Positions 9,381 to 25,603 of a DNA stretch of 25,869 nucleotides are shown piece after piece (position 1 is the stretch's first letter; each line of letters begins with the position of its first letter). The position numbers and the translations under genes are program-made. The stretch comes from a virus. The stretch spans positions 1-25,869 of the IMG/VR virus record IMGVR_UViG_3300021087_000070; one strand, 5' to 3'. The notes below the pieces were generated by a model, which saw only the letters and a list, made by a program, of their open reading frames with translations, was not told the origin of the DNA and searched no databases.

Positions 9381-10387
9381 TGCCTAAAAACGCGGTACCA
9401 AGTTACGAATCTCAGTTTTTCCTTCGTAGTGATCCTAGGGATGCATCTCCTGCGATGTATGGAGTGTCTGGTATTCGTGATTGGAGCGCCAGCTATAGTA
9501 TCCCTGAGACCACGATCAACGTCTTGGGCGCTGGTTTTGTGCGCAATATTTACGATGGCCCCTTACAGGGACAGCTTTCTTTAACGCGAGATCTTATTTT
9601 AAACGATGATCCTGTTTTAACTTATACTGGAGAAGATTCTTTTTCTGGTACATTAATTTATGATACTTATATAGGAGATGGAGGCGAAAAAGTTTTTGGC
9701 TTTAATTCTGGCTATTTAACTAATTACTCTGTAAGTTGTGGCGTTGGAGGCGTTCCTACTGTGGATTCGTCTTTTGTAACTTTTGGCAGATTTGGCAGTG
9801 GCATTCGTCATGGAGATTTAGACTATTCTGGGAACTCCCCACTAGAGGGATCTATGGGTATGAGGGTGCGGCCGGTACCAAATCAAGGTTCTATTTGGTG
9901 TGGTTTTGGGCAATCTGGCACTAACCGGGTTACGCAAGTCACTCAAAACTATGAAATTGACAGAGAGCCTATTTATGATCTTAGCCAAAAAACAGCTTCA
10001 GATTTAACAGGTGGCGCAGGCTTTGTGCCAGCAGAAGTTATTACTAATTATCCTATAGAAGTTACAACAAATATGACAGTTGAAGTAGACGATTACGAAA
10101 CCGCCAATATTATGGATACTATACGTAGCGGTCACCATGAAACAATTAGCTTGACAATGTATCAAAGCGCTCTAACCAATGAGAGTCTTTCAGGGCCAAA
10201 TGAAGTAGGAGGCACTACTAGCTTAGAAGATGATGACTCGCTGGCTTTAGAAGATAACGGCTACAGAACAGTATATAGGTTTAATAGCGTAACGGGACAA
10301 CTCGTATCTCAAAGTGTAAAGACATCAATAGATGGAACATTAAGTGTAGACTTAGAATTTAAAGACTTTTTAAATAGGAACTTATAA
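9380..10387 (+). CDS. Beta-rich tail structural protein, paralogue A
   Basis: A 335-residue beta-rich protein without membrane segments. Recognisable stretches are IRDWSASYSIPETTINVLG, GPLQGQLSLTRDLILNDDP, FGFNSGYLTNYSVSCGVGG and, at the end, GQLVSQSVKTSIDGTLSV. The same order of motifs occurs in the 271-residue protein at 12167-12982 (APLKGTLSFSHYLTG, SGYIRSLEFSVSP, GQVHSQSISASEGSSM), so the two are paralogues. This copy has an extra middle section (residues about 155-225) and an acidic loop near residue 280 (LEDDDSLALEDNG). It sits directly after the tape measure with a one-base overlap. By position and fold impression it may form a ring or tube-like layer at the distal tail, perhaps a Dit-like or tube-fold protein. 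The structural role is likely; the exact one is not known. Confidence 0.6.
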   Translation: MPKNAVPSYESQFFLRSDPRDASPAMYGVSGIRDWSASYSIPETTINVLGAGFVRNIYDGPLQGQLSLTRDLILNDDPVLTYTGEDSFSGTLIYDTYIGDGGEKVFGFNSGYLTNYSVSCGVGGVPTVDSSFVTFGRFGSGIRHGDLDYSGNSPLEGSMGMRVRPVPNQGSIWCGFGQSGTNRVTQVTQNYEIDREPIYDLSQKTASDLTGGAGFVPAEVITNYPIEVTTNMTVEVDDYETANIMDTIRSGHHETISLTMYQSALTNESLSGPNEVGGTTSLEDDDSLALEDNGYRTVYRFNSVTGQLVSQSVKTSIDGTLSVDLEFKDFLNRNL

Positions 10388-10388
10388 A

Positions 10389-12167
10389 ATGGGAAAAATA
10401 AATGAATATTCGGCTTTGTCGTTGCCTGCGAGCGACGATCTGCTTTTTATAGGCGACACAAGCGCAACTCCGGCCTATGAAATCAAAAACATTACAGTTG
10501 CTAATTTACATAAAGTGGCCAATGTAGCAGCGGAGGGCCCCAGTGGGTTGAGCCTTAAAGATGATGGTACCAACTATGGTATTTTTATCAAAGATGGTGG
10601 AAACGTAGGTATTGGCACTGGCGCAGGTAGCCCTAATACTTTCTTAGAGTTAAATTCAGGCGCCCGAACAGCCACTTTCGTCGCAGGCACCCCTTCTACG
10701 TGGACCAATATGCTTTTATTAAATCCCACAGACACAAATACTGCTGCGGTAGGTATTAATTTTCAAGTCGACAATGCTTTTGATTCAGGCAGTGGGGCAG
10801 GAATCGTGGGAATTAAAAGTCATGCCACTAATGCTCAAATGGACTTAGCTTTTATTACTGATCCGTCAGGAGCGGGTTCGGCTGAAGCGATGAGGATACT
10901 GCATGATGGTAACGTGGGAGTGGGAACTGCAACGCCGGGCGATAAGGTTGAAATTAAATACGACACCTCCGGCTCAAACAGGGCTTTGCAATTAAATTTT
11001 GCTAGTGATACTGCAGGGGTTGGAATGAAGTTTGCATATGCGGGAGCCTCGAAAGCTTATATTCAGTTTATTGGGTCCAATTATACAACGGCTGCACGTA
11101 GGAATAAGTTAGAGATTCTAGGGACAGATGGGATAACTTTTTGGCCAGATGGTGCTACAGCAGACGTCGTAATCAACACCGCTGGGAATCTAGGAGTGGG
11201 CACGACGACCCCAACGGCGCTTGTACATATTGACTCCGCTGTAGATAATGCCCTATACATACACTCTACGGACGTTAGCAAAAACGCGCGAATTAAAATG
11301 GCGCTCACAAGCAGTGGTGCGGGGTATATAGAAGATTCTCCGAATTATATAGCTATTTCTGGGAGTAGTACCCCTGCAGCCAATAATTGTTTACAAATTA
11401 GCAAAGGGGGAACCACAAGCGGGGGGTACATTAACATCGGTGGTACGCTAGGATCATTTGATTATGCTATAACAACCGCCTCGAACACACCTACCCAAGC
11501 ATCCTTTGCTAATACAAATGGCAGTAGGGGTTATATTTATATTACTAATACGACTAGCATAAATGCTCAAACCGCCGTAATATTTGGCAATGAGTCGCAA
11601 ACAAATTCGCCACGCTGGATGGCAGGTCAATTTTGGACGGGCTCACCTTCTGAGAATTATTTTTCATGGAATTATTTGGGCGGTACTGCTTTGGCGAGTA
11701 ATAGCCCCGATAGTGCTACCTTTAGCCCGAGTTCAAGTGCATTAGAAAGTAATACCGCTTACTGTTCTCAGAAAGGCGGTTTAACCTCCGAAAACACAAG
11801 TGTTGCGTTTGGCCATATCCGAACGGATGGGACCAGTAGCACCACAATTTTAGAGAGCACTTACAATATAGAGAGTCCAGTGGCTTTAAATTCTAGCGGA
11901 GTGGCTACTATTACATTTAATAAGACTTTAACGTCTGACAAATACACAGTTATAGCAAATGGGTGGGACGGAACACGGCCTCTGGTGGGATATGCCAGCA
12001 CTAAAAACGATACAGATGTTGCAATTACATTTTATCGTTTAGATACTGGCGCAGTTATTGATTTGACAGCTACTAGTGCTATTCATTTAGATTTTGTAGT
12101 ATATGGCGGTACAAAATCTGGGGTGGGTGGGGATGTTATGCTCCAAACGAGATTAGAAAAAGCTTAA
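10389..12167 (+). CDS. Tail fibre-like protein with GNVGIGT repeats
   Basis: A 592-residue fibre-type protein. The N-terminus (LPASDDLLFIGDTSATPAYE, then IKNITVANLHK) matches the usual attachment/trimerisation lead of marine and gut phage fibres. Three repeats of the GNVGIGT...P...LEI type are centred near residues 71, 173 and 265 (GGNVGIGTGAGSP, DGNVGVGTATP, AGNLGVGTTTP), each followed by a hydrophobic beta strand. This is typical of trimeric beta-rich shafts. The middle is Ser/Thr/Asn-rich. The last 100 residues (VALNSSGVATITFNKTLTSD, then YTVIANGWDG) look like a compact beta-sandwich receptor-binding tip. No S74-type self-cleaving chaperone domain is present. It begins one base after the previous stop and ends overlapping the next ATG by one base. 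A receptor-binding fibre or decoration role is inferred. Confidence 0.72.
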   Translation: MGKINEYSALSLPASDDLLFIGDTSATPAYEIKNITVANLHKVANVAAEGPSGLSLKDDGTNYGIFIKDGGNVGIGTGAGSPNTFLELNSGARTATFVAGTPSTWTNMLLLNPTDTNTAAVGINFQVDNAFDSGSGAGIVGIKSHATNAQMDLAFITDPSGAGSAEAMRILHDGNVGVGTATPGDKVEIKYDTSGSNRALQLNFASDTAGVGMKFAYAGASKAYIQFIGSNYTTAARRNKLEILGTDGITFWPDGATADVVINTAGNLGVGTTTPTALVHIDSAVDNALYIHSTDVSKNARIKMALTSSGAGYIEDSPNYIAISGSSTPAANNCLQISKGGTTSGGYINIGGTLGSFDYAITTASNTPTQASFANTNGSRGYIYITNTTSINAQTAVIFGNESQTNSPRWMAGQFWTGSPSENYFSWNYLGGTALASNSPDSATFSPSSSALESNTAYCSQKGGLTSENTSVAFGHIRTDGTSSTTILESTYNIESPVALNSSGVATITFNKTLTSDKYTVIANGWDGTRPLVGYASTKNDTDVAITFYRLDTGAVIDLTATSAIHLDFVVYGGTKSGVGGDVMLQTRLEKA

Positions 12168-12982
12168 TGGCTAAGTTCATAAAATATGAGAAAGCATTAC
12201 TGGAGATCGAAAGCCACAGTATTTTGGCTGAAAGTGCGGAGCTGGGTATAGAAGCGTCACTTACCCCCATAGAAAATATAACTGGAAGTGTTATGCGTTA
12301 TGTGGCAGGGGCTCCGCTAAAAGGTACCCTTTCTTTTAGTCATTATTTAACAGGGTCTCTTCATGAGTTCCTTAATCCTTTGACAAACGTAGAAAGGACA
12401 GGTGAGCCCTTGCGCGGCAATTTAGGGGGGGTTGAGTTTGCTAGCGGATATATCAGGAGCCTTGAGTTTTCAGTGTCTCCTATGGCTCCTGTTTTAGTGC
12501 GTTCTTCGATGGATATTTATGGAGAACTTAGCGTGTTAGATACGCAAGGGCGTAGTGATGAGGCAATGAGGGGGATACAGGAGGATCCACGTGCTATCAG
12601 CCATGGAGCTCAAACTTATTTGGCTGGAAATGATTTTGGAATAAATAATAAATTAGGCTTTTCTTATTCTGTTACATGCGAGCGCAATCCAATGACAGTT
12701 ATAGGGAGTGGTTTGCCTAGTCGGGTTACAAAAGAAAACGTACAAATTAATATGACCGTGCGTGGAGAGGATTTGGGCACCGTATTGACCACTACTGGAT
12801 ACGCAGCTGTAGCAGATGTTTATGTTTATGGTGTTTATGCAGATGCTGGGTCCTCCGCAATGGGTCGTTTTGGCTGTACGGGACAAGTTCATTCACAGAG
12901 TATTTCTGCATCCGAAGGGTCTTCTATGGCTGGAGAGATTTCGTTGTCTCAAGATTATTTAACTGGAAAGCAAGTTATATGA
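12167..12982 (+). CDS. Beta-rich tail structural protein, paralogue B
   Basis: A 271-residue protein paralogous to the product of 9380-10387. Shared segments in the same order are APLKGTLSFSHYLTG versus GPLQGQLSLTRDL, SGYIRSLEFSVSP versus SGYLTNYSVSCG, INMTVRGED versus TNMTVEVDD, and GQVHSQSISASEGSSM versus GQLVSQSVKTSIDGTL. It is shorter because it lacks the long middle section of copy A. No signal peptide or membrane segment is visible. It overlaps the fibre gene by one base (TAATG) and the following M-fusion gene by four bases (ATGA), so it belongs to the same translational chain. Being placed between a fibre and the gpM-like protein suggests a distal tail ring or fibre-docking component. 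Alternatives include a tail-tube-fold protein; no enzymatic motif is seen. Confidence 0.6.
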   Translation: MAKFIKYEKALLEIESHSILAESAELGIEASLTPIENITGSVMRYVAGAPLKGTLSFSHYLTGSLHEFLNPLTNVERTGEPLRGNLGGVEFASGYIRSLEFSVSPMAPVLVRSSMDIYGELSVLDTQGRSDEAMRGIQEDPRAISHGAQTYLAGNDFGINNKLGFSYSVTCERNPMTVIGSGLPSRVTKENVQINMTVRGEDLGTVLTTTGYAAVADVYVYGVYADAGSSAMGRFGCTGQVHSQSISASEGSSMAGEISLSQDYLTGKQVI

Positions 12983-15900
12983 TAATTAATTCTGGAGTAA
13001 CTAATATAGCAAGAGTGCTGCCATTCGAGGTGGGCAACGAGTATAAGAAGTACGATGTTGTCTATTATAGCGGTTACACAAATCCGAGTCCTACCCCTCC
13101 CACGCTTCACCCGTGTCTGCAATCTGAATCCGGCCATTGCTATTATACGGGCGATAGCATTACAACCTCAACAATTACTAATAGGCCTTACGGAGCGGAC
13201 ACCGAATGGACTACCGGCTTTTTTGCAGATGTGTCTTATGGGGCTACTGTTGATTATGAAGCCCTTAATTATACAACAGAGTTTGGTGATGGTTATTATA
13301 ATGTTTTAAATAAAAGTGAAAATGCGGTGCGCGCCACCTTTTCAACGAACTTTGCTAAAAGAACTGATCAGGAGACAAAAGCTATTGTTCATATATTAGA
13401 AGATTCTTTTAACCGAGGAAATTATCCCAGTGGGGGTTATAGTGGTATTCCATGGACACCTTTTGCCCCTTATAATCAAAGTGGTGCGTTTTTTGTAGAA
13501 AGTTTTACGCAGGGCTACGAGTCTCCCGACGTTAATAATGTTTCAACTACTTTTTTTCGAGAAACAGCATCTACCACCGACTGGAAAACCTTGTACATTC
13601 CTTTTGAAAACACGAGAGAAGATTATACGAATAACAAAGCTTATTTTCAGCATGACGCAACGTTTTTGCGGCAACTTCCCGACCAAGCAGACTTAACGCC
13701 CTCCCAAACAGGATGGTATTATTTTACAGGGGAAAAAGATGACGACTACACTCCGCAAACTGGAATTTTAGGGACAGAGTACAACTCGCCAACGGGAGAG
13801 TACCCTTTATGGACGAAAGATAATTTTTATTTTGATCTAAACCAAAACATCAGTATACCTCAAAACCCTCGTTTTACCAAACAAGACTTGGATAATGGTT
13901 TTACCATGAGGTTTAACGAAGGGATCAATAAAAATTTGCTTGCCTTTCCGGTCGAGCTAAAGGGGCGAACCGACAAAGAAGCTCTCGCAATCGTTCACTT
14001 TCTTGAGCATCATGCGGGAGTTCATCTTTTTCAATTTACGCCTCCGGCTCCTTACGACTTTACAAACAAGGTGTTTTTGGCTTCTAGTTGGAGCCATACT
14101 ATTAACTTCAAGGATAATAATGATATCACGGTTAATATGCGTGAGTTTCCTATTGATTATTTAAATCTATCTACAGAGTTTAGGTCTTTAGTAACAGTAG
14201 TTAATCGACCCTTAAAAAATCTGGCAGCTTATTGGAGTTGGCCAACAGAAGGAAATGCAAGTGGGCCAGTCAGCATAAATCGATACGCTGGATCTAAATC
14301 CACCATAGAAAGAATAGAAAATACAGATTTTATATCAAATACTGGTATGAAAGTTTTTGCTATAACAGGACAAAGCATTAGAACGGGATTCTATTTGACA
14401 AACAGCGGGAATACGGCCTTAAACACTTACATAGGTTATGATACTCCTTATCAAGCTTTTGATTTTCCTTCAGGTCATTCGCACAACCCTGTGGTTACGG
14501 CGCCGGGGAGTTCTAGTTTTATCCCTTTTTACTTTAAGGGCTTTAATGATAACATAACTGCCCCAGAGGTAACAACTGGTCCCGAATCAAGCGGCGTATA
14601 TACCGCAACGCTAACATTAAGAAACAAGTCTAATTTGGACAACACTTATGACCCGAGCGGCTTAATTACTTTTGGTATTACGGGTTATGTCACAGGGTTT
14701 GATGCGGCCGCTGGGTTGCCCGCTACCTGCGCTAATCCTTATAGGGGTAATGATGGCCAAACCCCCAATCATCCGGCTCGTTTTTTAATTCAAACGGGTT
14801 ACTATGACGCTTCAGGAGCGCCTATGAATGTATTAGCATGGCAACATCCCGCTACCGGTCATGATTTAAACCGTTATTCTGTTCAATATACTCAAGATAG
14901 TAGTTGGGTTGAGGTTTCGGGGGTCCCTTTCACGGATGATACTTCCATAAGAAATATTAATGGGATTGCTGGTACGGGATTCGAAATCAATCGCAAATAT
15001 ATTCAATCTTATGGTTTAGGTTTTGCTAATACTGCTGGATATGTTGAGACTAATTTTTATAGTGGAATTTTAGTTCCGTCAAGTTTGGCTGGGGACCCTC
15101 AGATACCTGAAGGGCTGAGAAATCTTCCAGACCCTCAAAACACAGGTATACATCAAGATTCATATTTTATACATAAAGAACTCTCTCAAGATCAAAATTA
15201 TTATTATAGAATGAGATCAGAGTATGTGCAATCTAATAATAGCTCTACCTCTGATATTGTGGGTTCCATGTATGTATACGCCAGCGGAACCTCAGATTTT
15301 AGCACCGATGTTTCTCATCAAGTGTCTACGGGCTTGAGTGATAGCTCAACTCAGTTTACTGATGCCCGAACAGTGATACCTACGAGCCCCAAGCCTGCTT
15401 TTAGGGTGCATTTGGACCATGGTTCTTCAAATATTAATTTAAGCGGGGTGTTTATAAAAGCTTTGGTAGACCGCGGATTAGTAAAACAAGAGAATGGGCT
15501 TGATCTAGCTATTGGCTCGAACCCTACGGCTGCAGATTATCTTGCCATTGCCAATACGGGAGCCTATGCTGATAATTATACTGGGGTACAATTTATATTA
15601 CGCCCGGATTCTATAGTGGGTGCTGAAGGGGGGGCTTATCCGGCAGGAGATCCTGATGCAGGTATGGTGATCCCTGCTGTAAGGACAGGCTACCAGCTAT
15701 TAACTGGTGTGGTCCAACCAGCGGACGCAGGCCCAACTAACGCCAACACTCAAAAGCCTTTAGCAGAAACACCATCTGTGTTGGTTATGCAAAACAGTTC
15801 TTTGATTGTAGGTCAAGGTGGAGGAGGAGGCGACGGAGGCATAACAACGATTGGGCAGGACGACATAGGAGAATGGGGGACCACCAAGGGAGCTCAAAGT

Positions 15901-18024
15901 GATACGAGCAAAGATGCTCAATACACTTTGACATTAGATATTCAGTATGAAAAAGATTCTACGGTGGGAGCGGGCGCAGGTGATGCAATTTATATTTCAC
16001 ATCCTAGTATTGATAAGTTTTCTATTCGTAAGGATTATAACGCCAAAATCTATGGGGGCGGAGGAGGCGGTGGGGGCGGAGATCGCTTTTTAGCTGAAAA
16101 GATATTTTCCATTAAATCTAAGGGTGTCTCGAAGGAATGGATGCTTAATGCACGAGGATCAAAGGGGACCTACGATAAGGGCTATGGGGTGGGATGGCAC
16201 TATGGCGGTAACTGGACACCGGCACAAAAAATTGAAATCAGTGACGAGGGAAACATTTTAGTTAACTTAGGTTCGAAATTTGGAGATACAATATCATCTG
16301 CGCACGATTATATCCCTACGCACGGGGGTGATATAATTTTTAGAGCTATAGATTTTGTAGGGATCCATAGGGGGGGAGCCGGGGGTGGAGGAGCTGGCTT
16401 TAGGACTGTTAAAGGCGGCACCCAGTTTTCAGACAAAGGTTTAAAAGATTATATCAGCGATCTTTCTAATGGGGGGTATGGCTTCGCTGGAATAGGAAAT
16501 CTCAAGGGAAGGCATAATCGAGCAGATACGTCAGATGCACATAAACACGCTTTTGGGGGGAATGGTGGAGATTATGGTGAGCCGGGAAGTATAGGACAAA
16601 CATTTAGTGAACAAACTATGGGAATACCTTTTCTATTGGATGAGGAAAGTAAATCAGGAAAAGCTGGAGGGGCTGCAGGTAAAGCTATTCGCGTTATTAG
16701 CACTAACACTAATTATACTGTGAGTAATTATCGTGGTAAACTTTTATCTATCACTCCATCTATAACGCCCATCACAGACATCCCCGGTTTGGTGGGATAT
16801 TTTGAAGCAGGCAATAAAAGTTATAACACAGGAACAACAGAAGCCACTGCTACAGAAACAGTAGAAAAATGGGTATCCACAAATGACGCCAACGTTTATT
16901 TAGAGCAAACCACCGCAGATAATAAGCCCACTTTACAAGATGCTAATAAAGAAGATCAAACAGTCGGGGAAGGCCTAAGTTTAACTCGATCAGGAATAGT
17001 AACTGTCCGTCATGAATTTTTTAATAATCAAAAATATATTTATTTTAGTCCTACTCTAAGCACTAAAATTAATTATATGAAGCTTTATGGGGCCACTTCA
17101 AATGTGGATTACGATGGAGATATACAGATCCATAATGTTGGGCAAAGTTATGCGGCGGCAACAGGCATTACTATCGCCATACAACCTGTAGCTTTTTCAA
17201 TTGCAGCAGGAACTGTAATTACCTTTCGTGGGGGCTCTGTTTTCACAGTGACTTCAGCGGCCACTTATGCTTCGCCAGATAAGATTACTTCATTGACAGG
17301 AAACCTATCTGGCCCTGATTTACAAAATGCTGTTCGGGGCTATTACCGCTTATCTTCTCTGGCTAATGGCTTTGACATCTTTTATGTTATATATCCAAAC
17401 AGGTGGTTTACCGCGTCGGGTAACTTTACCGCAGATACCTCCCGCAATGACAATCAAGTAGGAAAAGATGCCGATTATCAAACAGGCTGGAGCGAGTTCT
17501 CCTCAACGCAGAAAACGCCTTCTGTTTTTTATAATCGCAAGAGTGGTCGAGTTACAGATAATACTGGGCTCGGAAATCTAGAAGAACAGTTTTCTTTTGC
17601 TGATCGGGGATCTACGCGAAGCATAGTGGGCAATTATCCTCGTCGGTCGTGGGTATACAATTTAAGTGGGAGCTCTACGGGAGGAAAGTTGTATTTGAAT
17701 GCGCAAAACGATGGAAATGCAGTAGGAAGTAATATTTACAAGGGTGATAGTTTTATTTTTAATTCATCAGGCAGCGTTTATGTAGGGGGAAGTAAAACGA
17801 AAGGTAGTGGCGCTGTGGACCTTGGCTTCCGAGGTGCAATCGCTGCAATTGTAATTTTTAATCGACGCCTAACCTCGCGAGAAAACCGTAAGGTTTTAGG
17901 TGTTTTGTTTAACAAATATTTAAGAACTAAGGCTGCAAACGCAACAACGCAGGTAGGCCTCGAATATCAAAACAAACGGTCGGATCTCACCGGAATAGCG
18001 GGTCAAATATACTTTACTCCATAA
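12979..18024 (+). CDS. Giant tail-tip protein: tandem gpM-like domains fused to Fn3-like, Gly-rich and lectin-like regions
   Basis: A 1681-residue protein. Residues about 85-195 (EFGDGYYNV, RTDQETKAIVHILEDSF) and 290-395 (GRTDKEALAIVHFLEHHAG, FQFTPPAPYDF) each resemble the 109-residue lambda minor tail protein M (FGDGY...FLEEHGG...WTPPYEW). A stretch at about 615-780 looks Fn3-like (LAWQHP, YSVQYTQDSSWVEVSGVPF, YYYRMRSEYV). Residues about 945-1240 are a glycine-rich region with poly-Gly runs ending in GGAAGKAI, as in phage adhesin tips. Residues about 1265-1660 resemble a LamG/concanavalin lectin domain (GLVGYFEAGN, WVSTNDANVYLEQ, FRGAIAAIVIFNRRLT), interrupted near 1394-1454 by a short beta module also found in the gpL-like protein. 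The start overlaps the previous gene by four bases (ATGA) after GGAAAG. It lies between the tape measure and L, where M belongs. Adhesin function is inferred. Confidence 0.75.
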   Translation: MIINSGVTNIARVLPFEVGNEYKKYDVVYYSGYTNPSPTPPTLHPCLQSESGHCYYTGDSITTSTITNRPYGADTEWTTGFFADVSYGATVDYEALNYTTEFGDGYYNVLNKSENAVRATFSTNFAKRTDQETKAIVHILEDSFNRGNYPSGGYSGIPWTPFAPYNQSGAFFVESFTQGYESPDVNNVSTTFFRETASTTDWKTLYIPFENTREDYTNNKAYFQHDATFLRQLPDQADLTPSQTGWYYFTGEKDDDYTPQTGILGTEYNSPTGEYPLWTKDNFYFDLNQNISIPQNPRFTKQDLDNGFTMRFNEGINKNLLAFPVELKGRTDKEALAIVHFLEHHAGVHLFQFTPPAPYDFTNKVFLASSWSHTINFKDNNDITVNMREFPIDYLNLSTEFRSLVTVVNRPLKNLAAYWSWPTEGNASGPVSINRYAGSKSTIERIENTDFISNTGMKVFAITGQSIRTGFYLTNSGNTALNTYIGYDTPYQAFDFPSGHSHNPVVTAPGSSSFIPFYFKGFNDNITAPEVTTGPESSGVYTATLTLRNKSNLDNTYDPSGLITFGITGYVTGFDAAAGLPATCANPYRGNDGQTPNHPARFLIQTGYYDASGAPMNVLAWQHPATGHDLNRYSVQYTQDSSWVEVSGVPFTDDTSIRNINGIAGTGFEINRKYIQSYGLGFANTAGYVETNFYSGILVPSSLAGDPQIPEGLRNLPDPQNTGIHQDSYFIHKELSQDQNYYYRMRSEYVQSNNSSTSDIVGSMYVYASGTSDFSTDVSHQVSTGLSDSSTQFTDARTVIPTSPKPAFRVHLDHGSSNINLSGVFIKALVDRGLVKQENGLDLAIGSNPTAADYLAIANTGAYADNYTGVQFILRPDSIVGAEGGAYPAGDPDAGMVIPAVRTGYQLLTGVVQPADAGPTNANTQKPLAETPSVLVMQNSSLIVGQGGGGGDGGITTIGQDDIGEWGTTKGAQSDTSKDAQYTLTLDIQYEKDSTVGAGAGDAIYISHPSIDKFSIRKDYNAKIYGGGGGGGGGDRFLAEKIFSIKSKGVSKEWMLNARGSKGTYDKGYGVGWHYGGNWTPAQKIEISDEGNILVNLGSKFGDTISSAHDYIPTHGGDIIFRAIDFVGIHRGGAGGGGAGFRTVKGGTQFSDKGLKDYISDLSNGGYGFAGIGNLKGRHNRADTSDAHKHAFGGNGGDYGEPGSIGQTFSEQTMGIPFLLDEESKSGKAGGAAGKAIRVISTNTNYTVSNYRGKLLSITPSITPITDIPGLVGYFEAGNKSYNTGTTEATATETVEKWVSTNDANVYLEQTTADNKPTLQDANKEDQTVGEGLSLTRSGIVTVRHEFFNNQKYIYFSPTLSTKINYMKLYGATSNVDYDGDIQIHNVGQSYAAATGITIAIQPVAFSIAAGTVITFRGGSVFTVTSAATYASPDKITSLTGNLSGPDLQNAVRGYYRLSSLANGFDIFYVIYPNRWFTASGNFTADTSRNDNQVGKDADYQTGWSEFSSTQKTPSVFYNRKSGRVTDNTGLGNLEEQFSFADRGSTRSIVGNYPRRSWVYNLSGSSTGGKLYLNAQNDGNAVGSNIYKGDSFIFNSSGSVYVGGSKTKGSGAVDLGFRGAIAAIVIFNRRLTSRENRKVLGVLFNKYLRTKAANATTQVGLEYQNKRSDLTGIAGQIYFTP

Positions 18025-18028
18025 AACC

Positions 18029-19918
18029 ATGGCAACAGAAGCACATAATAAATCAATAACGGACCTTCTTCCAGATACACTGATAGAGTTGTTTGAGATT
18101 CAGGTGGGAGAGGGCAGAGGTGTAAAAAGATTTCATCCCGGTAAAATTATTGATAAAGATATTGTATTAAATAAAAAAACGTATTATTGTCTTCCTCTCG
18201 AAGCTACAGGATTCGAGTCTAAAGGCGACGGAGCCCTCCCGCGCCCAAAATTGATAATAGCGAACCCTGACGGATTAATTTCTGATCTGATAAAAAGGGA
18301 GGATGATATGATTGGCCACACGTTTAAAAGAATTAGAATATTTTTAAAATTTTTGGACGAGGTTAATTTTCCCGAAAAGGTTAATCCATTTGGCAATTCT
18401 GATCCTGAGTCTCGTTTCGATGACGATTTGTATGTTTTTAATCGTAAAATATCAGAGAATAAATATTTTATAGAGTTCGAGCTGGTCTCACCACTAGAGG
18501 TGGAGAACTACAAATTGCCAGCACGCATTATGATCGCAAATTATTGTCCGTGGAAATACCGTGGAATAGGGTGCCGTTATGGAGGTAGAGGCGACTATAC
18601 GGGACCTAAAACAAATTTAACTGCTCCAGACGGCGTGAATAAGTTACAATCAGTTGATTTTTTTCCGCAAAAAGAGTCGCAGTTGATAACGGTAACCAAA
18701 ACCGGAGGGGCTACATCAGATGGGGCTCATTCGGATGGGGCGACATCGATGGCTGTGGATGCGTTGCCTGTGGTGCTGCGTAGCGGAAACAAGTTGAATT
18801 TTGGAGCCACTGGAGCAGTTTTTACTTTAGACGCTAATGCTGCGGCAGGCGCTACAACTATCTCAGGCGCTTTAGTCGGGGATGTAGCTGATAATGCGGT
18901 TGGTACATTGAGTTATCCTGTGGGAAATTATTCTTCCTCTACTGGTATTATTGTGGAAGAGTTGTCGCTTTCTCTTAGTTTTGGGGAAACAATTCGTTTT
19001 GCGAACGGTGGGCGTTTTAAATTAGACGCTGAGGCAGCTGTTGATGATACGGAAGTTTTTGGTGATTTAACAATGGCAGCTGTAGAGGCAGCAGAGGGAG
19101 GGAGAATAGTATTGAGTTCAGACCCTCGTATACAAGGGGTTCCTGTAGCAGACGAGAAAGACAAAAGATTTGATGACCCTAATAGCGGCTTTAATCTTCA
19201 GGGGATGAGGTGGGTTTATGAATATAATCCCACTTTGTTTAGTATCGCGCTCAGTGCCTCAACGAATGCCGCGCCTGCGGTTGTGTTATCCGTAGATAAT
19301 ATTCCTCAAAATATTAACCCTAATCGTACAATCACCTTATCGGACAGCGGTGGCGCTGAAATAGGTACCTTTTATGTGACAGCTTTAGCTCGCAAAACAG
19401 TTACCGTTGAGTTAACGGCCGCAGCGGCCAATGCTGCGACCACAATAACTGTAAAGCCAGTTAACGCTACCTTAAAAAAAGGAGAAACAATTACCTTTAG
19501 CGCTACAGAAAGCGTGTTGCTAACAAAAGACGTCACCAATGGCGATCAAGTTTTAGATGGAACAGTTAGTACGAGCGGAAGTCCTATTGCTCTCGGAAGC
19601 TCGGGTACCTTACGAACTAAAATTTCAGGAAATTTAGTTTTAAGTACGGGAAGCTCCGCCCCGGCAACAGCAACAGGAATAGTAGGATATGTTAAGGGAG
19701 ATGTGGTGTCAATCACCTCTTTAGATGGCGATCCTCCTGCTCTTTTTGTATGTATCCAAGATCATACTTCAGTCCAAGATCCTCGTTTCAAGAAAGAGTA
19801 TTGGGTAGAAGATCAGTGCAGTAAAACCTTAGATGGTTGTAAGATGCGCTTTAGCGACCATACTCATCTTCCTTTCGGAGGCTTTCCTTCCATTGAGGCT
19901 TATAGATATACCAATTAA
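18029..19918 (+). CDS. L: Minor tail protein L, putative Fe-S tail-tip protein with large insertion
   Basis: A 629-residue lambda gpL homologue (lambda gpL is about 230 residues). The N-terminal part follows gpL closely (ATGFESKGDGALPRPKL, RIFLKFLDEVNF, LPARIMIANYCPWKYRGIGC). Lambda gpL binds a [4Fe-4S] cluster through four cysteines. Here C173-X8-C182 and C597-X6-C604 (DQCSKTLDGC) are kept in the same sequence context, and the protein ends FGGFPSIEAYRYTN like the lambda FGGFLSI end. The extra middle cysteine of lambda (CSKCLSGC) is Thr here. About 414 residues separate the two pairs, where lambda has about 20. The insert has at least three copies of a beta module with the pattern TIxVxPVxxxLKxGExITF. 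The gene starts five bases after the M-fusion stop. It acts at the tail tip and probably links the gpM ring to gpJ. Confidence 0.9.
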   Translation: MATEAHNKSITDLLPDTLIELFEIQVGEGRGVKRFHPGKIIDKDIVLNKKTYYCLPLEATGFESKGDGALPRPKLIIANPDGLISDLIKREDDMIGHTFKRIRIFLKFLDEVNFPEKVNPFGNSDPESRFDDDLYVFNRKISENKYFIEFELVSPLEVENYKLPARIMIANYCPWKYRGIGCRYGGRGDYTGPKTNLTAPDGVNKLQSVDFFPQKESQLITVTKTGGATSDGAHSDGATSMAVDALPVVLRSGNKLNFGATGAVFTLDANAAAGATTISGALVGDVADNAVGTLSYPVGNYSSSTGIIVEELSLSLSFGETIRFANGGRFKLDAEAAVDDTEVFGDLTMAAVEAAEGGRIVLSSDPRIQGVPVADEKDKRFDDPNSGFNLQGMRWVYEYNPTLFSIALSASTNAAPAVVLSVDNIPQNINPNRTITLSDSGGAEIGTFYVTALARKTVTVELTAAAANAATTITVKPVNATLKKGETITFSATESVLLTKDVTNGDQVLDGTVSTSGSPIALGSSGTLRTKISGNLVLSTGSSAPATATGIVGYVKGDVVSITSLDGDPPALFVCIQDHTSVQDPRFKKEYWVEDQCSKTLDGCKMRFSDHTHLPFGGFPSIEAYRYTN

Positions 19919-20255: not shown

Positions 20256-20264
20256 AAGTGTATA
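20254..20264 (+). promoter_or_regulatory. AAAAGTGTATA element with TATAAT before the first I gene
   Basis: The K stop codon is followed by AAGTGTATAATGTAGGT and then the ATG at 20273. AAAAGTGTATA (20254-20264) repeats the word found near 240-251 and at 2033-2044. TATAAT at 20261-20266 matches a -10 box, but the -35 position reads ATTTAT, so a sigma70 promoter is unconvincing. It may be a phage-specific element; this rests on recurrence only. Confidence 0.3.
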
Positions 20265-20272
20265 ATGTAGGT

Positions 20273-20980
20273 ATGATATCCGTTTCTATTGAAGGTCGCG
20301 CTGGGCAAGCATTAGGCCCTAAGTGGAAGCTTCATGTAGGTACGGTTGGAGAGGCGTTAAGGGCTTTACGTGCAAACGCTGGAAGTGTTTTTGAAAAGGC
20401 TTTAGGCTTGTCTAAGGGATATGTGCTGGTGATAGACGGGGTTCCGGCAGAGTCTTCTGGTTGTTTTTTAAAAAAAATTAAAAAAAGCTTATGTTTTATT
20501 CCTGTTTTGGCAGGAGGGCTTGTGACTTTTTGGTATGCGGTTTTTTCCCAAGTATTGCTGATAGCCCCCGGCTTGAGTTATGCTGCGGCTTCAGTTATAG
20601 CAACAATAGTAGTTGTGGCGGCGGTGGCTCTCATCGCTTATGGGATTTATACTCTTGTTTCTATGTTGACGGCGGATGCTGGTCCTGATGTTGAGGGTGA
20701 GGGGACCAACAGTTTTGCTTTTCGGGGACCTGAAAACGTGAGTGAACAGGGTCAAGTGGTTCCTGTGGGTTATGGTAGATTGATGAGCGGTAGTCGCGTT
20801 ATTTCGGTATCCTCGAGTAATGTGGACAGGCAGGTATGGGAGCATAATAACATGAAGGTATTTGGAGGCATGAAGTCCGTTTATACCCCAAGCCCAAGAG
20901 TTGGAGTAGGGGGAGGATTGGGAGGCGGAGGGGCTTGGATGTACTCACTACTGAATGAACCTATGGCTATGAGACCTTAA
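20273..20980 (+). CDS. I: Tail assembly protein I, first copy (ubiquitin-like)
   Basis: A 235-residue gpI family protein. ATG 20273 was chosen over GTG 20258 because the product (MISVSIEG) then aligns with the second copy (MTNISIEG). Residues 1-82 fit the ubiquitin-like beta-grasp domain known in gpI and end with IPVLAGG (G81-G82). A hydrophobic, Ala/Val-rich segment (about 84-140) may be membrane-spanning. The C-terminal part has FRGPENVSEQGQVVPVGYGR, matching lambda FSSLDNMVAQGNVLPVLYGE, and then SGSRVISVSSSNVD. The last part is nearly identical at DNA level to copy two. The gene contains T6-A8-TT-A7 (20464-20486) with an in-frame UUUAAAA. In lambda, gpI acts in tail-tip assembly and is thought to leave before completion. 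Family assignment is strong. Confidence 0.88.
   Translation: MISVSIEGRAGQALGPKWKLHVGTVGEALRALRANAGSVFEKALGLSKGYVLVIDGVPAESSGCFLKKIKKSLCFIPVLAGGLVTFWYAVFSQVLLIAPGLSYAAASVIATIVVVAAVALIAYGIYTLVSMLTADAGPDVEGEGTNSFAFRGPENVSEQGQVVPVGYGRLMSGSRVISVSSSNVDRQVWEHNNMKVFGGMKSVYTPSPRVGVGGGLGGGGAWMYSLLNEPMAMRP
20798..20910 (+). repeat. 113-base direct repeat, copy 1 (3' part of first I gene)
   Basis: Bases 20798-20910 match 21492-21604 with about seven mismatches by eye (roughly 94 percent). They encode the conserved stretch from VISVSSSNVDRQVWE to SPRVGVG. The 5' parts of the two genes are far more diverged, so this block was either duplicated recently or homogenised by gene conversion. Confidence 0.85.
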
Positions 20981-20981
20981 T

Positions 20982-21680
20982 ATGACGAATATATCTATAG
21001 AAGGGCATTTAGGTGAAGTTGTAGGGTCTTCGTGGACTCTTAAGGTTAAAAATTTTAGGGAGCTGTTTAATGCCCTAGAGGCAAATACCAACAAGCTGCG
21101 GAATTATTTTAATGCTCGTCGCAAGCAGTATTGGGCTATCTTCGTTGACGATGAGAGAGTGGATGCTGAAAAGTTTATGTTTCAGAATATTGAAAATAAA
21201 CACGTTAGAATCATTCCTTTATTGGCAGGAGGGGCGAGCACGTTAGCGGCAGCTATTGTTGCTGCTATTGGTGTGGAGGGAACCGCGGCTTTGATTTTAG
21301 AGTTTGTTATATCTGCGATCATTTCTATGGCTATTTCTTTTGGGTTAAGCATGCTGATGGCTAAATTAATGAAAAGTGATGACCCTGAAGCTGCCAATAC
21401 TACTTCTCATGTTTTTTCTTCCCCCGAAAATGTAAGCCAACAGGGAGAGGTGGTGCCTGTTGGGTATGGGAGGGTAAAGGTGGGAAGCACTGTTATTTCG
21501 GTTTCCTCCAGTAATGTGGACAGGCAGGTATGGGAGCAGAACAACATGAAGGTATTTGGGGGCATGAAGTCCGTTTATACCCCAAGCCCCAGAGTTGGGG
21601 TAGGTGGCGCAGGCGGTGGGCTCCGCGGAGGGATCATGCGGTCTATTGATGAGAGAATGGTAGGTGTAATACAGAATTAA
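20982..21680 (+). CDS. I: Tail assembly protein I, second copy (ubiquitin-like)
   Basis: A 232-residue gpI paralogue starting one base after the first copy's stop (TAATATG). The ubiquitin-like N-terminus (MTNISIEGHLGEVVGSSWTL) ends in IPLLAGG at G83-G84, equivalent to copy one. A hydrophobic region follows (about 85-135: TLAAAIVAAIGVEG and LILEFVISAIISMAISFGL), with two probable helices. Then come FSSPENVSQQGEVVPVGYGR and GSTVISVSSSNVDRQVWE, shared with lambda gpI and copy one. The extreme C-terminus differs (GGLRGGIMRSIDERMVGVIQN against GGGGAWMYSLLNEPMAMRP). Lambda has a single I gene; two tandem copies are unusual. They may act as a heteromeric pair, or each may serve a distinct stage of tip assembly. 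Family assignment is strong; the division of labour is unknown. Confidence 0.87.
   Translation: MTNISIEGHLGEVVGSSWTLKVKNFRELFNALEANTNKLRNYFNARRKQYWAIFVDDERVDAEKFMFQNIENKHVRIIPLLAGGASTLAAAIVAAIGVEGTAALILEFVISAIISMAISFGLSMLMAKLMKSDDPEAANTTSHVFSSPENVSQQGEVVPVGYGRVKVGSTVISVSSSNVDRQVWEQNNMKVFGGMKSVYTPSPRVGVGGAGGGLRGGIMRSIDERMVGVIQN
21492..21604 (+). repeat. 113-base direct repeat, copy 2 (3' part of second I gene)
   Basis: Partner of 20798-20910. Differences are scattered single bases, most silent; one pair changes VWEHNN to VWEQNN. Confidence 0.85.
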
Positions 21681-21700: not shown

Positions 21701-24700
21701 ATGGATTACCAATTTGATAACGCATCTCACTTAGGGGGGGCTGGTACCAACGGCACCGGAGCTGAGGGTGGTCAAGCCTATGAGACCGATAAGGTTGACG
21801 TGGGTGTGGATGATCGAATGCCGCCTCCAACCCAAGTGGATCCAACACCCGCCCCAGATATAACCACCCCTCAGACTCCTACTGGACCCCCGGGAGATGT
21901 TACGCCCCCGGGAAAGGAAGGGACGGATACCGTCACAGAAACAGTCGGTACCAACACAGAGGAGACAAAAAATAAGAATTTAGAGAGAGATATTGGTAAA
22001 CAGGGAGCAGCAATCGGCCCATTAGATAATTCGTCTTCCGACACCCGTGCCCTAGCAGGTACAATTAAAGTATCGAACCCCCTGATAGGAAGAAAAACTA
22101 ATGCTGATATTTTAACTATACTAGATAATTTGGGTCAGAGTGACATCTCTCCTTTTATCGATAACTTAAATGTGCTCAAACCAAAAGACCATAAACCGGC
22201 AAAGTTAGAATCGGTAGGTATCTATAAGACTATCGATCTTATATCAGAAGGCCCAATAGCGGGGCTATGCGATGCTCACGGAAATTTAATCCCTTTGGTG
22301 GATGGGGCGGATACATTAAATGAAGACGGTTTGAAAGGGATATATCTGAATGACGTTCCCGTTAAAAACAGCAGAGGTGGGACGCTCAATTACCAAAGAA
22401 TTCTTTCTGAGATTAAATATGGTACCTTAGACCAAGGGTTGATGAAAGACAACGAACAAAAGGCGCTTTCTTTTTTAAGGTCATCTCAAACTTTTAATGT
22501 GGCGCTGAAGTTGCCGGGCCTTACTCGCCCTCAAGCTCAAACTTTTGCGGGAGACGAGCAAGTAACAGACACTGGTGGGGGCGCCTCTTTTACTCCTCAC
22601 CTATATAAATCTGGTCCCAAAATTGAGATCGACGGCGTGTTGCAGCCCCCTCTATATGAAACCGACATCTGGAGCGACGAAAAGGCCCCGAAAGAAGACG
22701 GCACCGGTCGTAAGTCGGTTCTATTTCAAATAGTTACGGTGGGGGAGGAAGCCAATCTTCCTTCTATTTTTGCGCGAGCACCGAGCAATGATCTGGCCTC
22801 GCATGATATGGTGAAGCGTATGAGGCAAGTTTTTGCTATCCAGCCAGTGGTATACCATCATACTATTACAAATGACAATGTTACTGATGTAGAAATTAAT
22901 TTATTTGTAGATCAACTTTTTTTGCGAGACGTTAATCCAGAAAAAGCCAAAGATCCTTTAAATAATACAGCGTTTTTTCTGATAAAAATTGGATACGAAG
23001 ATAGCGATCGCCTACTTGGTGACGGTGGCGACACGTTTTATACCTTTGTTCCTATCTCTGGGCTGTGCACTTCAAGGTATGAGCGCTCATATACTTTCCC
23101 GTTGCCGGTGGTAGCGGCAGATAGAGATCGGCGTATTTCTATTTGTTTAGCTCACGAAGAGCCGTTTCCAGATGCGGTAGCCGTAGGAGCCATTCAGCGT
23201 CAAGCAGGAGTGGCTACTGTGACGGAGATTGTTGAGTCTCCTTTGGTGTACCCTCATTCTGCTATTATGGCCACTCTGATTGATGCTAGATCATTTGGGA
23301 GGGTGCCCAAGCGTACTTTTGACATGAAGTTGCTTAAAATAAAAATACCGGCCAACTATGACAGCGAGAACAGGGAGTATAGTGGTAATTGGACGGGGCA
23401 GTGGGCAAAATACAAGCAATGGAGTAATAATCCAGCGTGGGTTTTTTACGACATGATGACAAGCAAGAGGTACGGTTTGGCTAAATATGGTTTTGGTGAT
23501 GATATTGTTGATAAGTGGAATTTATATTCTATAGGAAAATATTGTGACGAATTAGTAGAAACAGGTTATCGTCCAGCTAATTTGCCTCTTCACTTTTCAA
23601 TTCATTCGAACGGTGCGGTGGTGTTTATTAATGACAAGGGTAGCAAGCAAGATGGAAGCGCGTTGGGGGAAGAGGTTCTTAGGGATATGTTTCCAGAAGG
23701 CGAAACGGTAGCTCTTTATAAGTTGAAAGACGAAAGCGGAACTGCCCTAAACCGGGGGTTTCGTAGGCGCATAGGACAGTCTTTTTATGATATACATGCT
23801 GAGGGCGGCCCCACGTTTAGTTTTAATATCCATAAAATTATTAACTCAGAATATATTTTTATGCTTTATGAGGATCTTGAGCAACAATATGTTGATTACA
23901 ACGACACTTTTGACGCCGCAAAACAAAAAAATAAAATAACCCCTAACACGTGGATAGCTAACTACTTAACTACAAAGTCTGCCGAAGGAGTCACTTCCGA
24001 TGTAGTTAAGGACTATATGGCTGGTTATACTTTGGGCTCATCTGTAAGAACGGGGCGTGTGGTAGTGGAAAAGGATTTGTACAAGCCTGTTTTAGAGCCT
24101 CGTTTTTCAACTAATATTTATTTAGACAGGGAGCAGGACGCTTATAATTGTTTGAATGATTTGGCCGCTATTTTTAGAGGGATGGTTTATTGGAATAATG
24201 GCTTTGTGTTTATTTCAAACGATCAGTCGCGGGACGCTGTTATGGTTTTTACTAATTCTAACGTCCAATCTGGTGTTTTTACTTATACGGGCAGCTCAAA
24301 GTCTACTAGATTTACTTCCGTACTGGTTAGATATAATGATGCTCAGGACAGCTACAAGCCAAAAGTTGAATATATTGAAGATGCGGCTTCTATTCGCAAG
24401 TATGGATATTTAGAAAAGAAAATTATAGCCCTTGGCACCACCTCTCGCTCTCAGGCTTACAGGCTTGGTAAATGGTTTTTATATACTAATCAACTTGAAA
24501 CGGATTTAATTCAATTTAAAACTGGGATCGAAGCTACCTATCTACGGCCCGGAGATGTTATAAAAATTCAAGATAGTTTAAAAAACACAAAGAGATACGG
24601 AGGAAGGATTAAGGCTATTGATCCTGCTAATTATCAGCTTACGCTGGATCAAGGGGTTTATGAGGATGTGGTGGGGCAAAAAATTACCTTAATAGTTCCA

Positions 24701-25603
24701 CAATCTTCTAAAGCCGTAACCCAACTTAACGCCGCCGCTAAAGAAAAACTTCACAAACAAGATCTGACGGGGGTGGCGCAAAGCGAAATTGATGAGACTC
24801 GTGCAACTCAAATTCAACAGTTTACTGTTACAGCGGTCAGCGGAAGTGATGCTAATTCAGGGGGAGCTCAAAACGATTTAATCACAGTAGAGGCTGCTGA
24901 AGCTTTTGGCGAAGTGGCCGTAGGCACTATTTGGTCTATGCAAAATACCGCAGCAGACTATAAAATCAAAGAGGTAGAATACCGTATCTTAAGTGTTACA
25001 GAGGAAACTGCGGGAGAGTATGCGGTTACAGGCATGATGTACGCAGGTTCTAAATTTGGGGCAATTGATGAATCACGAGATTTAGTTGCAACGCAGCAAT
25101 CGGCTTCTATGCTTAATTCGCAAGGAGCGGTTGAGGAGCCGGATTGGGAAGCCACCGAGAACAGCACTAAGGTAATTGTCGTTGATAATAAGTCTGTTGG
25201 ACAAGGAAATAAAAGACCGGAGTTGGGGGGCAATATGGAGTTTGATGAGGGTGGCTTTGATCCAGCAGATGGTGGCATGATAACTTTGGAAGTTAATTTT
25301 TGTGAGCAGTTGCAATCTATGGCTGAACATCAACCAGTAGGAGCAACAAAGGAAATCTTCGAATTTTACATTACATTTAACGTAGATGGGGTTGACTTGC
25401 CCAAACGAACAGTACCGGGAGGGTACGGTTCTGGGGGGCCGTCTACTGATACGTGTCAGATGCAACTGGAGGTTCCACGAGGAACTCACACCGTATACTG
25501 GTCTTTGTCTTATCTCCAATCCTTCCAGTTTGACGGTGCGCCTTTCGCGACAGAGAATACCGTCAGTTCTGACATATTTTACGCACTTGGGGGAGGAGAA
25601 TAA
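21701..25603 (+). CDS. J: Tail-tip central fibre / host specificity protein J
   Basis: A 1300-residue gpJ family protein (lambda J is 1132). Residues 1-110 are a Pro/Thr/Gly/Asp-rich, apparently disordered extension not typical of lambda J (DPTPAPDITTPQTPTGPPGD). Family hallmarks begin near 167: SVGIYKTIDLISEGPIAGLC, GIYLNDVPVKN. Further matches are LNDLAAIFRGMVYWNNGFVF, RYNDAQDSYKP, TSRSQAYRLGKWFLYTNQLE and LRPGDVIKIQD (about 815-955), which follow the lambda J core. The last about 115 residues form a separate beta-rich domain (EIFEFYITFNVDGVDLP, GTHTVYWSLSYLQSF). There is no extended C-terminal fibre stalk. J caps the tail, contacts the receptor and starts tail assembly in lambda. Here receptor recognition may be shared with the fibre and M-fusion proteins. 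It starts 20 bases after the second I gene with only AGAAAA as a weak ribosome site. Confidence 0.9.
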   Translation: MDYQFDNASHLGGAGTNGTGAEGGQAYETDKVDVGVDDRMPPPTQVDPTPAPDITTPQTPTGPPGDVTPPGKEGTDTVTETVGTNTEETKNKNLERDIGKQGAAIGPLDNSSSDTRALAGTIKVSNPLIGRKTNADILTILDNLGQSDISPFIDNLNVLKPKDHKPAKLESVGIYKTIDLISEGPIAGLCDAHGNLIPLVDGADTLNEDGLKGIYLNDVPVKNSRGGTLNYQRILSEIKYGTLDQGLMKDNEQKALSFLRSSQTFNVALKLPGLTRPQAQTFAGDEQVTDTGGGASFTPHLYKSGPKIEIDGVLQPPLYETDIWSDEKAPKEDGTGRKSVLFQIVTVGEEANLPSIFARAPSNDLASHDMVKRMRQVFAIQPVVYHHTITNDNVTDVEINLFVDQLFLRDVNPEKAKDPLNNTAFFLIKIGYEDSDRLLGDGGDTFYTFVPISGLCTSRYERSYTFPLPVVAADRDRRISICLAHEEPFPDAVAVGAIQRQAGVATVTEIVESPLVYPHSAIMATLIDARSFGRVPKRTFDMKLLKIKIPANYDSENREYSGNWTGQWAKYKQWSNNPAWVFYDMMTSKRYGLAKYGFGDDIVDKWNLYSIGKYCDELVETGYRPANLPLHFSIHSNGAVVFINDKGSKQDGSALGEEVLRDMFPEGETVALYKLKDESGTALNRGFRRRIGQSFYDIHAEGGPTFSFNIHKIINSEYIFMLYEDLEQQYVDYNDTFDAAKQKNKITPNTWIANYLTTKSAEGVTSDVVKDYMAGYTLGSSVRTGRVVVEKDLYKPVLEPRFSTNIYLDREQDAYNCLNDLAAIFRGMVYWNNGFVFISNDQSRDAVMVFTNSNVQSGVFTYTGSSKSTRFTSVLVRYNDAQDSYKPKVEYIEDAASIRKYGYLEKKIIALGTTSRSQAYRLGKWFLYTNQLETDLIQFKTGIEATYLRPGDVIKIQDSLKNTKRYGGRIKAIDPANYQLTLDQGVYEDVVGQKITLIVPQSSKAVTQLNAAAKEKLHKQDLTGVAQSEIDETRATQIQQFTVTAVSGSDANSGGAQNDLITVEAAEAFGEVAVGTIWSMQNTAADYKIKEVEYRILSVTEETAGEYAVTGMMYAGSKFGAIDESRDLVATQQSASMLNSQGAVEEPDWEATENSTKVIVVDNKSVGQGNKRPELGGNMEFDEGGFDPADGGMITLEVNFCEQLQSMAEHQPVGATKEIFEFYITFNVDGVDLPKRTVPGGYGSGGPSTDTCQMQLEVPRGTHTVYWSLSYLQSFQFDGAPFATENTVSSDIFYALGGGE
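25589..25598 (+). promoter_or_regulatory. Strong Shine-Dalgarno site GGGGGAGGAG
   Basis: GGGAGGAG lies at the end of the J gene, seven bases before the ATG at 25606. It is the strongest ribosome site in the window and supports the start of the right-edge gene. Confidence 0.7.

Follow-up and report, generated by a model that had tools for sequence, protein, structure and literature searches.

The window analysed here, the whole of the IMG/VR virus record IMGVR_UViG_3300021087_000070 (25,869 bases), carries on its plus strand the tail module of a lambda-like siphophage, in which a single open reading frame (ORF) encodes a 1681-residue protein that joins two gpM-like tail-ring domains to a glycine-rich, gp38-like domain and a lectin-like fold. 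The best explanation for this protein as a whole, and in our judgement probably the correct one, is that it is a ring subunit derived from a duplicated unit of a small module and an M domain, that it forms a trimeric ring, and that the fused gp38-type adhesins are displayed besides J. The gpM domains themselves are readily recognized, and we infer the trimeric state, the outward exposure, and the binding of a receptor.

The gpM domains and their duplication

The initial annotation placed two M-like segments at the head of the chain, and both were identified as gpM domains. The gpM family profile PF05939 matched residues 282–388 in a search of the whole protein (E = 1.6e-14, 54.6 bits, cut-off 39) and, in a search of the first domain (M1) alone, residues 85–192 below the cut-off (20 bits, E = 7e-4 to 1e-3), whereas an iterated profile recovered both domains unambiguously (residues 81–192, 3e-32, and 283–389, 2e-36). 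The structure predicted for M2 (residues 280–392) superposes on lambda gpM (8iyk_E) with a template modelling (TM) score of 0.77 (Z score 10.3, 3.0 Å, 103 residues). For M1, the predicted gpM fold is supported by the topology that it has in common with M2 and by the joint match of both M domains, over residues 51–395 of the model, to the distal tail protein of phage JBD30 (8rk3_D; Z 10.0, 217 residues). The models cover residues 1–960, with a mean predicted local distance difference test score (pLDDT) of 59, and residues 780–1681, with a mean pLDDT of 69 and a predicted TM score of 0.68.

Given that the profiles of unit 1 (residues 14–200) and unit 2 (residues 200–398) align over 158 columns (E = 1e-25, probability 99.7%) and that the modules preceding the two M domains match each other at E = 9.4e-11, the duplicated unit is, on sequence grounds, a module of about 75 residues together with M. 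A stand-alone single unit of this kind is found in contig L042 (180 amino acids, aa).

Tandem M domains are also present, in other settings, in more than 60 further IMG/VR contigs, nearly all with exactly two domains detected by the M profile; these contigs were collected by similarity to the tandem and thus provide no measure of its frequency. A tree of 123 M domains separates all 61 M1 domains from 59 M2 domains, with which the three single Ms (those of lambda, L042, and L061) group (bootstrap 99). Because M1 and M2 form separate clades across the tandem-M contigs, the sequences indicate one old duplication that predates the adhesin fusion, with M2 being the canonical type; the duplication is not specific to the fusion, being both widespread and older. 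The ratio of non-synonymous to synonymous substitution rates (dN/dS), estimated pairwise between the window and L004, L011, and L009, with some dS values near saturation, is 0.02–0.04 in M1 and M2, so that M1 is constrained as strongly as M2. Among cultured phages, the whole-chain sequence search yielded single-domain gpM matches only, and the 318-aa tandem M gave no match at the sensitivity of tblastn.

The putative glycine-rich adhesin and its fusion to the ring gene

Domain-by-domain structure prediction recovered the Fn3-like, polyglycine, and LamG-like parts expected from the initial reading of the sequence; the list given there lacked the module of about 75 residues before each M and the immunoglobulin (Ig)-like domain before Fn3. 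In the model of residues 780–1681, the glycine-rich domain is predicted to adopt a polyglycine-II sandwich fold, with low pLDDT in the variable loops, and matches gp38 of phages S16 (6f45_D; Z 17.1, 212 of 248 residues) and PP01 (9v85_A; Z 17.1, 209 residues). The window domain and gp38 have in common an ordered series of motifs, namely, GxGGxGG, a GGxAI-type turn, a stretch of eight or nine consecutive glycines, GGxGGGG, GNGGDxGxPG, and GGAAGxA, and glycine accounts for 34 of the 42 invariant columns in an alignment of 14 sequences. The glycine motifs alternate with hypervariable segments, in which dN/dS reaches 0.32–0.48 (segment 1) and 0.8–1.5 (segment 2, only 16 codons), against the 0.02–0.04 of the M domains.

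Alignment scores to gp38 exceeded those of composition shuffles with z of 3.5–4.5 in four of the six comparisons and 0.9–1.7 in the other two. When aligned locally, the window and S16 gp38 are out of register in the first half of the alignment, and we therefore rely on the fold match and the motif order. The glycine domain had no tblastn match and no PHROG match, for which composition filters are a possible cause. Since sequence profiles alone missed gp38, it is on fold, motif order, and variability that we assign the domain, as a probable gp38-type adhesin. The proposal that the glycine-rich part is of an adhesin type is supported by this predicted structure; a lectin-like fold comes next.

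The C-terminal 400 or so residues are predicted to form a concanavalin A/LamG-like fold (Z 15–18), which may bind a sugar. Neurotoxins and sialidases also appear among the matches to this fold; these reflect the common jelly-roll and were not taken as indicative of function. Within the lectin-fold region, a small beta module (like AGTVITFRGGSVFTVTSAATY; about 17086–17343) recurs, in varying copy number, in the C-terminal half of the gpL-like protein (18029–19918), and L004, L009, and L011 contain an extra insertion of a AGTVITFRGGSVFTVTSAATY-like module, which looks like a mobile insertion domain.

Instead of binding the host, the C-terminal part could be mainly structural, a spacer or a docking piece for side fibres. 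The distal tail proteins of JBD30 do form docking sites for tail fibres, and two genes upstream of the fused ORF is P0006, which is fibre-like, but the gp38-like fold with its pattern of glycine motifs and hypervariable segments is a receptor-contact signature and is followed by a lectin fold, so we consider a mainly structural role improbable.

That a single chain is encoded, as initially proposed, is borne out by the uninterrupted ORF, which is kept in eleven other IMG/VR contigs (L002–L007, L009–L011, L018, and L019; in L005, the fused ORF runs off the contig end, and L008, which starts inside it, is counted apart). Although all the data come from metagenomic contigs, an assembly or sequencing artefact is refuted for practical purposes by the presence of the fused frame in twelve independent contigs, with purifying selection acting through the junction.

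Five relatives (L012, L020, L021, L103, and L104) encode, instead, an M-M protein (395–420 aa) and an adhesin (995–1130 aa) in separate adjacent genes, so that fusion is not required to place an adhesin beside the ring protein. The profiles of the middle and glycine-rich regions of the window protein match all the separate adhesins, and the profile of the lectin part matches all but that of L020. The fused sequences are monophyletic (bootstrap 96), with the three tested split lineages branching below them. In L012, the sister to the fused clade, both genes are in the same frame, with a stop codon and nine bases between them; in L020 and L021, the frames differ and the gene ends nearly touch, and L103 and L104 also appear to have separate, out-of-frame genes. 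The simplest reading of this branching order is that the fusion is a derived step, the intermediate L012 stage resting on one contig. The relatives thus appear to trace a route from out-of-frame genes (L021, L020, L103, and L104) via in-frame genes to the fused ORF, which allows one to ask what the covalent tethering of the adhesin changes.

The same relatives bear on the possibility that the adhesin separates from the ring part, through release or cleavage, so that the fusion merely couples expression and stoichiometry: they function as two proteins, and a disordered linker of about 60 residues marks the old gene boundary in the fused chain. This linker, however, is conserved in sequence (dN/dS 0.07–0.21), and no protease site came to light, no search having been aimed at one; we give cleavage about as little credence as a mainly structural role.

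Fusion partners of the tandem are not limited to the window's clade. L022, L023, L025, L024, and L068 have about 300–1100 residues N-terminal of M1, and L094–L099 have long stretches C-terminal of M2, a pattern suggesting that additional domains are often attached to the tandem ring. As judged by eye, the genes that follow M in L022, L023, and L025 have N-termini resembling the separate adhesins but lack the glycine motifs. In addition, L024 (8192–11296) has a C-type lectin match before M1, and in L070 (7484–10357), M1 and M2 are separated by a LamG domain.

The proposed ring and its counterparts in known phages

The lambda ring contains six gpM subunits, which adopt two conformers and give it three-fold symmetry, matching the tube to a hub that is likewise three-fold (PMC10721106). 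In JBD30, the step from six-fold to three-fold symmetry is made by a trimer of gp49, each chain of which contributes two tube-like beta-sandwiches (PMC11445458). Given these two rings, and the match of our model to the JBD30 protein over residues 51–395, a trimer of M1-M2 is most likely. The halving of the chain number that the initial annotation expected from two M domains in one chain has a solved precedent, the JBD30 gp49 trimer (PMC11445458).

We propose that the fused protein serves a lambda-like siphophage as the subunit of its distal tail ring, of the gpM/Dit type. An old duplication of the module-and-M unit would have produced the tandem ring protein; three chains would make up the ring, with M1 and M2 alternating and each M1-M2 pair replacing two gpM subunits. 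This alternation would parallel the two gpM conformers in lambda, and one covalent chain would mediate between the six-fold symmetry of the tube and the three-fold symmetry of the hub (L, I, and J). Later, in the window's clade, the neighbouring adhesin gene would have been fused in frame to the ring gene. Beyond the linker and an Ig-Fn3 arm, the gp38-type polyglycine-II adhesin would touch the receptor with its hypervariable loops, and the C-terminal lectin-fold domain would possibly bind sugar. Besides J, the resulting virion would display three adhesins, each covalently tethered, around its tail tip.

The protein was at first viewed as an alternative to J in receptor binding, but downstream of it lie gpL, K, I, and J, in that order, and the adhesin is an addition; given that J is still encoded, the adhesin most likely provides a further contact, either early or in parallel. 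A further-reaching version, which we regard as tentative but worth keeping in view, is that the duplicated ring is a covalent symmetry adaptor that hard-wires the two gpM conformers of lambda and is also the main modular receptor-binding platform of these siphophages, so that the three tethered gp38-type adhesins, captured by fusion, set the host range instead of or before J. In such a platform, the tandem M would bear domains at its C-terminus (in the window's clade), at its N-terminus (L022, L024, and L068), or between M1 and M2 (L070).

Several points weigh against the proposed trimeric, adhesin-bearing ring. The M profile failed to detect JBD30 gp49 (E = 0.11 when gp49 alone was searched unfiltered), which is linked to the window protein by fold only, and a search of PDB sequences with the glycine-domain profile gave no gp38 match, possibly owing to composition filters. 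The split relatives indicate that covalent attachment of the adhesin is dispensable for function, and the mean pLDDT of the two models is only 59 and 69, with values below 50 in the hypervariable loops.

There could also be six chains per virion, with M2 forming the canonical hexameric ring, M1 a second stacked ring or a lateral decoration, and six adhesins shown. The grouping of M2 with the single Ms, with M1 as a diverged class, favours such an arrangement, and phage 1358 has been proposed to contain a second hexamer of Dit (PMC7291167), but the solved JBD30 tandem protein has both domains side by side in one ring, a single superposition aligns our model with both of its domains, and M1 is under constraint as strong as that of M2. 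We consider six chains unlikely.

The window protein resembles, in different parts, several known systems. With lambda gpM, the window protein shares the ring fold, the PF05939 family, and the place between tape measure and L, and the two alternating conformers fit the two fixed domain types, whereas gpM is an undecorated single domain of 109 aa and the window protein consists of two module-and-M units followed by about 1290 aa. JBD30 gp49 is similar in its two tube-like beta-sandwich domains per chain, in fold over both, and in gene order, but sequence homology was undetected, its decorations are inserted oligosaccharide-binding domains, and it has no C-terminal adhesin. The T-even gp38 proteins (S16 6f45_D and PP01 9v85) have the polyglycine-II sandwich predicted here, the same motif order, and hypervariable segments in between, but they are separate proteins capping the trimeric gp37 fibre, whereas the window domain lies inside a tail-ring chain, between Fn3 and the lectin fold.

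Evolved Dits of Gram-positive phages are ring proteins bearing host-binding domains (PMC7291167), as the window protein would be from its domain content; they differ in having one ring domain per chain and galectin-borne insertions of carbohydrate-binding modules, in place of a gp38-type adhesin and a lambda-type hub. Pfam and fold searches of the fused protein reported no galectin domain and gave no identification of modules 1 and 2. Finally, gp25 of Alishewanella phage LSH1 is a siphophage hub protein with a gp38-type domain (PMC13243795), that is, a tail-tip protein with the same kind of fusion, but the domain is on the hub rather than on a tandem ring protein, and for gp24, which makes up the LSH1 ring, a single tube fold and six-fold symmetry are described (PMC13243795).

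Thus, host-binding ring proteins, trimeric tandem ring proteins, and a gp38-type domain on a siphophage hub are each known individually; in the literature searched, we found neither tandem M combined with a gp38-type adhesin nor a visible route of fusion. The window would place a gp38-type host-range domain on a siphophage tail ring and provide a natural case of a six-fold tube meeting a three-fold hub. For host-range prediction in uncultured phages, these results suggest that the M/Dit gene and the gene next to it are worth inspecting, besides J and the side fibres.

Feature coordinates and neighbouring genes

Table 1 Features of the fused ORF and of the surrounding tail genes in the window.
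Feature	Coordinates	Strand	Basis
Tape-measure-position protein, 2438 aa	2064..9380	+	Assigned by size and place
Fused tail-ring/adhesin protein, 1681 aa	12979..18024	+	ATG start, no internal stop; orthologues L002-L007, L009-L011, L018, L019
Module 1, small beta module preceding M1, aa 1-80	12979..13218	+	Homologous to module 2, hhalign E 9.4e-11; predicted strands
M1, first gpM-like ring domain, aa 81-196	13219..13566	+	PF05939 85-192; profile 3e-32; M2-like strand/helix order; dN/dS 0.02-0.03
Module 2, aa 197-280	13567..13818	+	Profile comparison with module 1
M2, second gpM-like ring domain, aa 281-392	13819..14154	+	PF05939 E 1.6e-14; 8iyk_E Z 10.3; profile match to gpM E 2.6e-6
Flexible linker, aa 393-455	14155..14343	+	pLDDT about 25-30; gene boundary of split relatives (junctions L012, L020, L021)
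HYDIN/MSP-like Ig domain, aa 456-575	14344..14703	+	9ijj_C Z 9.9 over 456-572; weak PF22544 in L012 adhesin
Fn3 domain with insertion, aa 593-805	14755..15393	+	Many Fn3 chains, Z 9.4-10.8
Putative gp38-type polyglycine adhesin domain, aa ~926-1270	15754..16788	+	6f45_D Z 17.1, 212 aligned; 9v85_A Z 17.1, 209 aligned; co-linear glycine motifs
Glycine motif GQGGGGGDGG, aa 945-954	15811..15840	+	Glycines invariant in 14 sequences
Glycine motif GGGGGGGGGD, aa 1026-1035	16054..16083	+	14-sequence alignment
Hypervariable segment 1, aa 1038-1126	16090..16356	+	dN/dS 0.32-0.48; 45-60% identity, against 92-97% in the M domains of the same chains
Glycine motif GGAGGGGAGF..GG, aa 1131-1147	16369..16419	+	14-sequence alignment
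Hypervariable segment 2, aa 1176-1191	16504..16551	+	dN/dS 0.8-1.5, just 16 codons
Glycine motif GGNGGDYGEPGSIG, aa 1192-1206	16552..16596	+	14-sequence alignment; S16 gp38 counterpart AGNGGDVGNPGSA
Glycine motif GKAGGAAGKAI, aa 1228-1238	16660..16692	+	14-sequence alignment; S16 gp38 counterpart GGGAAGRAV
Predicted concanavalin A/LamG-like lectin-fold domain, aa ~1260-1673, small beta module inserted	16756..17995	+	ConA-like domains, among them tailspike 9vyh, Z 15-18
gpL-like hub protein	18029..19918	+	PF05100 E 6e-39; phrog_18
gpI-like protein, copy 1	20258..20980	+	phrog_32; 43% identity to copy 2
gpI-like protein, copy 2	20982..21680	+	phrog_32
gpJ-like central fibre/hub	21701..25603	+	PF13550 E 6e-25; phrog_31 1e-118

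The genes in the window are arranged in the order tape-measure-position protein, P0005, P0006, P0007, the fused protein, gpL, a K-like protein with a JAB domain, two gpI-like proteins, and gpJ, so that the fused M gene sits between the tape-measure position and gpL, with three further genes intervening after the former. This order, H-x-x-x-M-L-K-I-I-J, is conserved in the window and its relatives. A scan of genome contigs found no prophage relative.

Between the tape-measure position and M, two conserved proteins without a convincing family match (335 aa, 9380–10387, and 271 aa, 12167–12982) flank a tail-fibre-like protein of 592 aa (10389–12167; phrog_18345, E = 2e-12), and a similar pair, or one member of it, is found upstream of tandem M in nearly all relatives. 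The adjacent gpI-like gene pair (20258–20980 and 20982–21680) is apparently also present in L002, L006, L012, and L021. The gene after J in L003 (17411–19822) and L007 (16644–19070) apparently runs into collagen-like Gly-X-Y repeats, as judged from proline/glutamate-rich antisense frames. At the J position, L095 (12252–17018) and L101 (12647–17314) encode proteins of about 1560–1590 aa with a gpI-like start; this start and their position suggest an I-J fusion.

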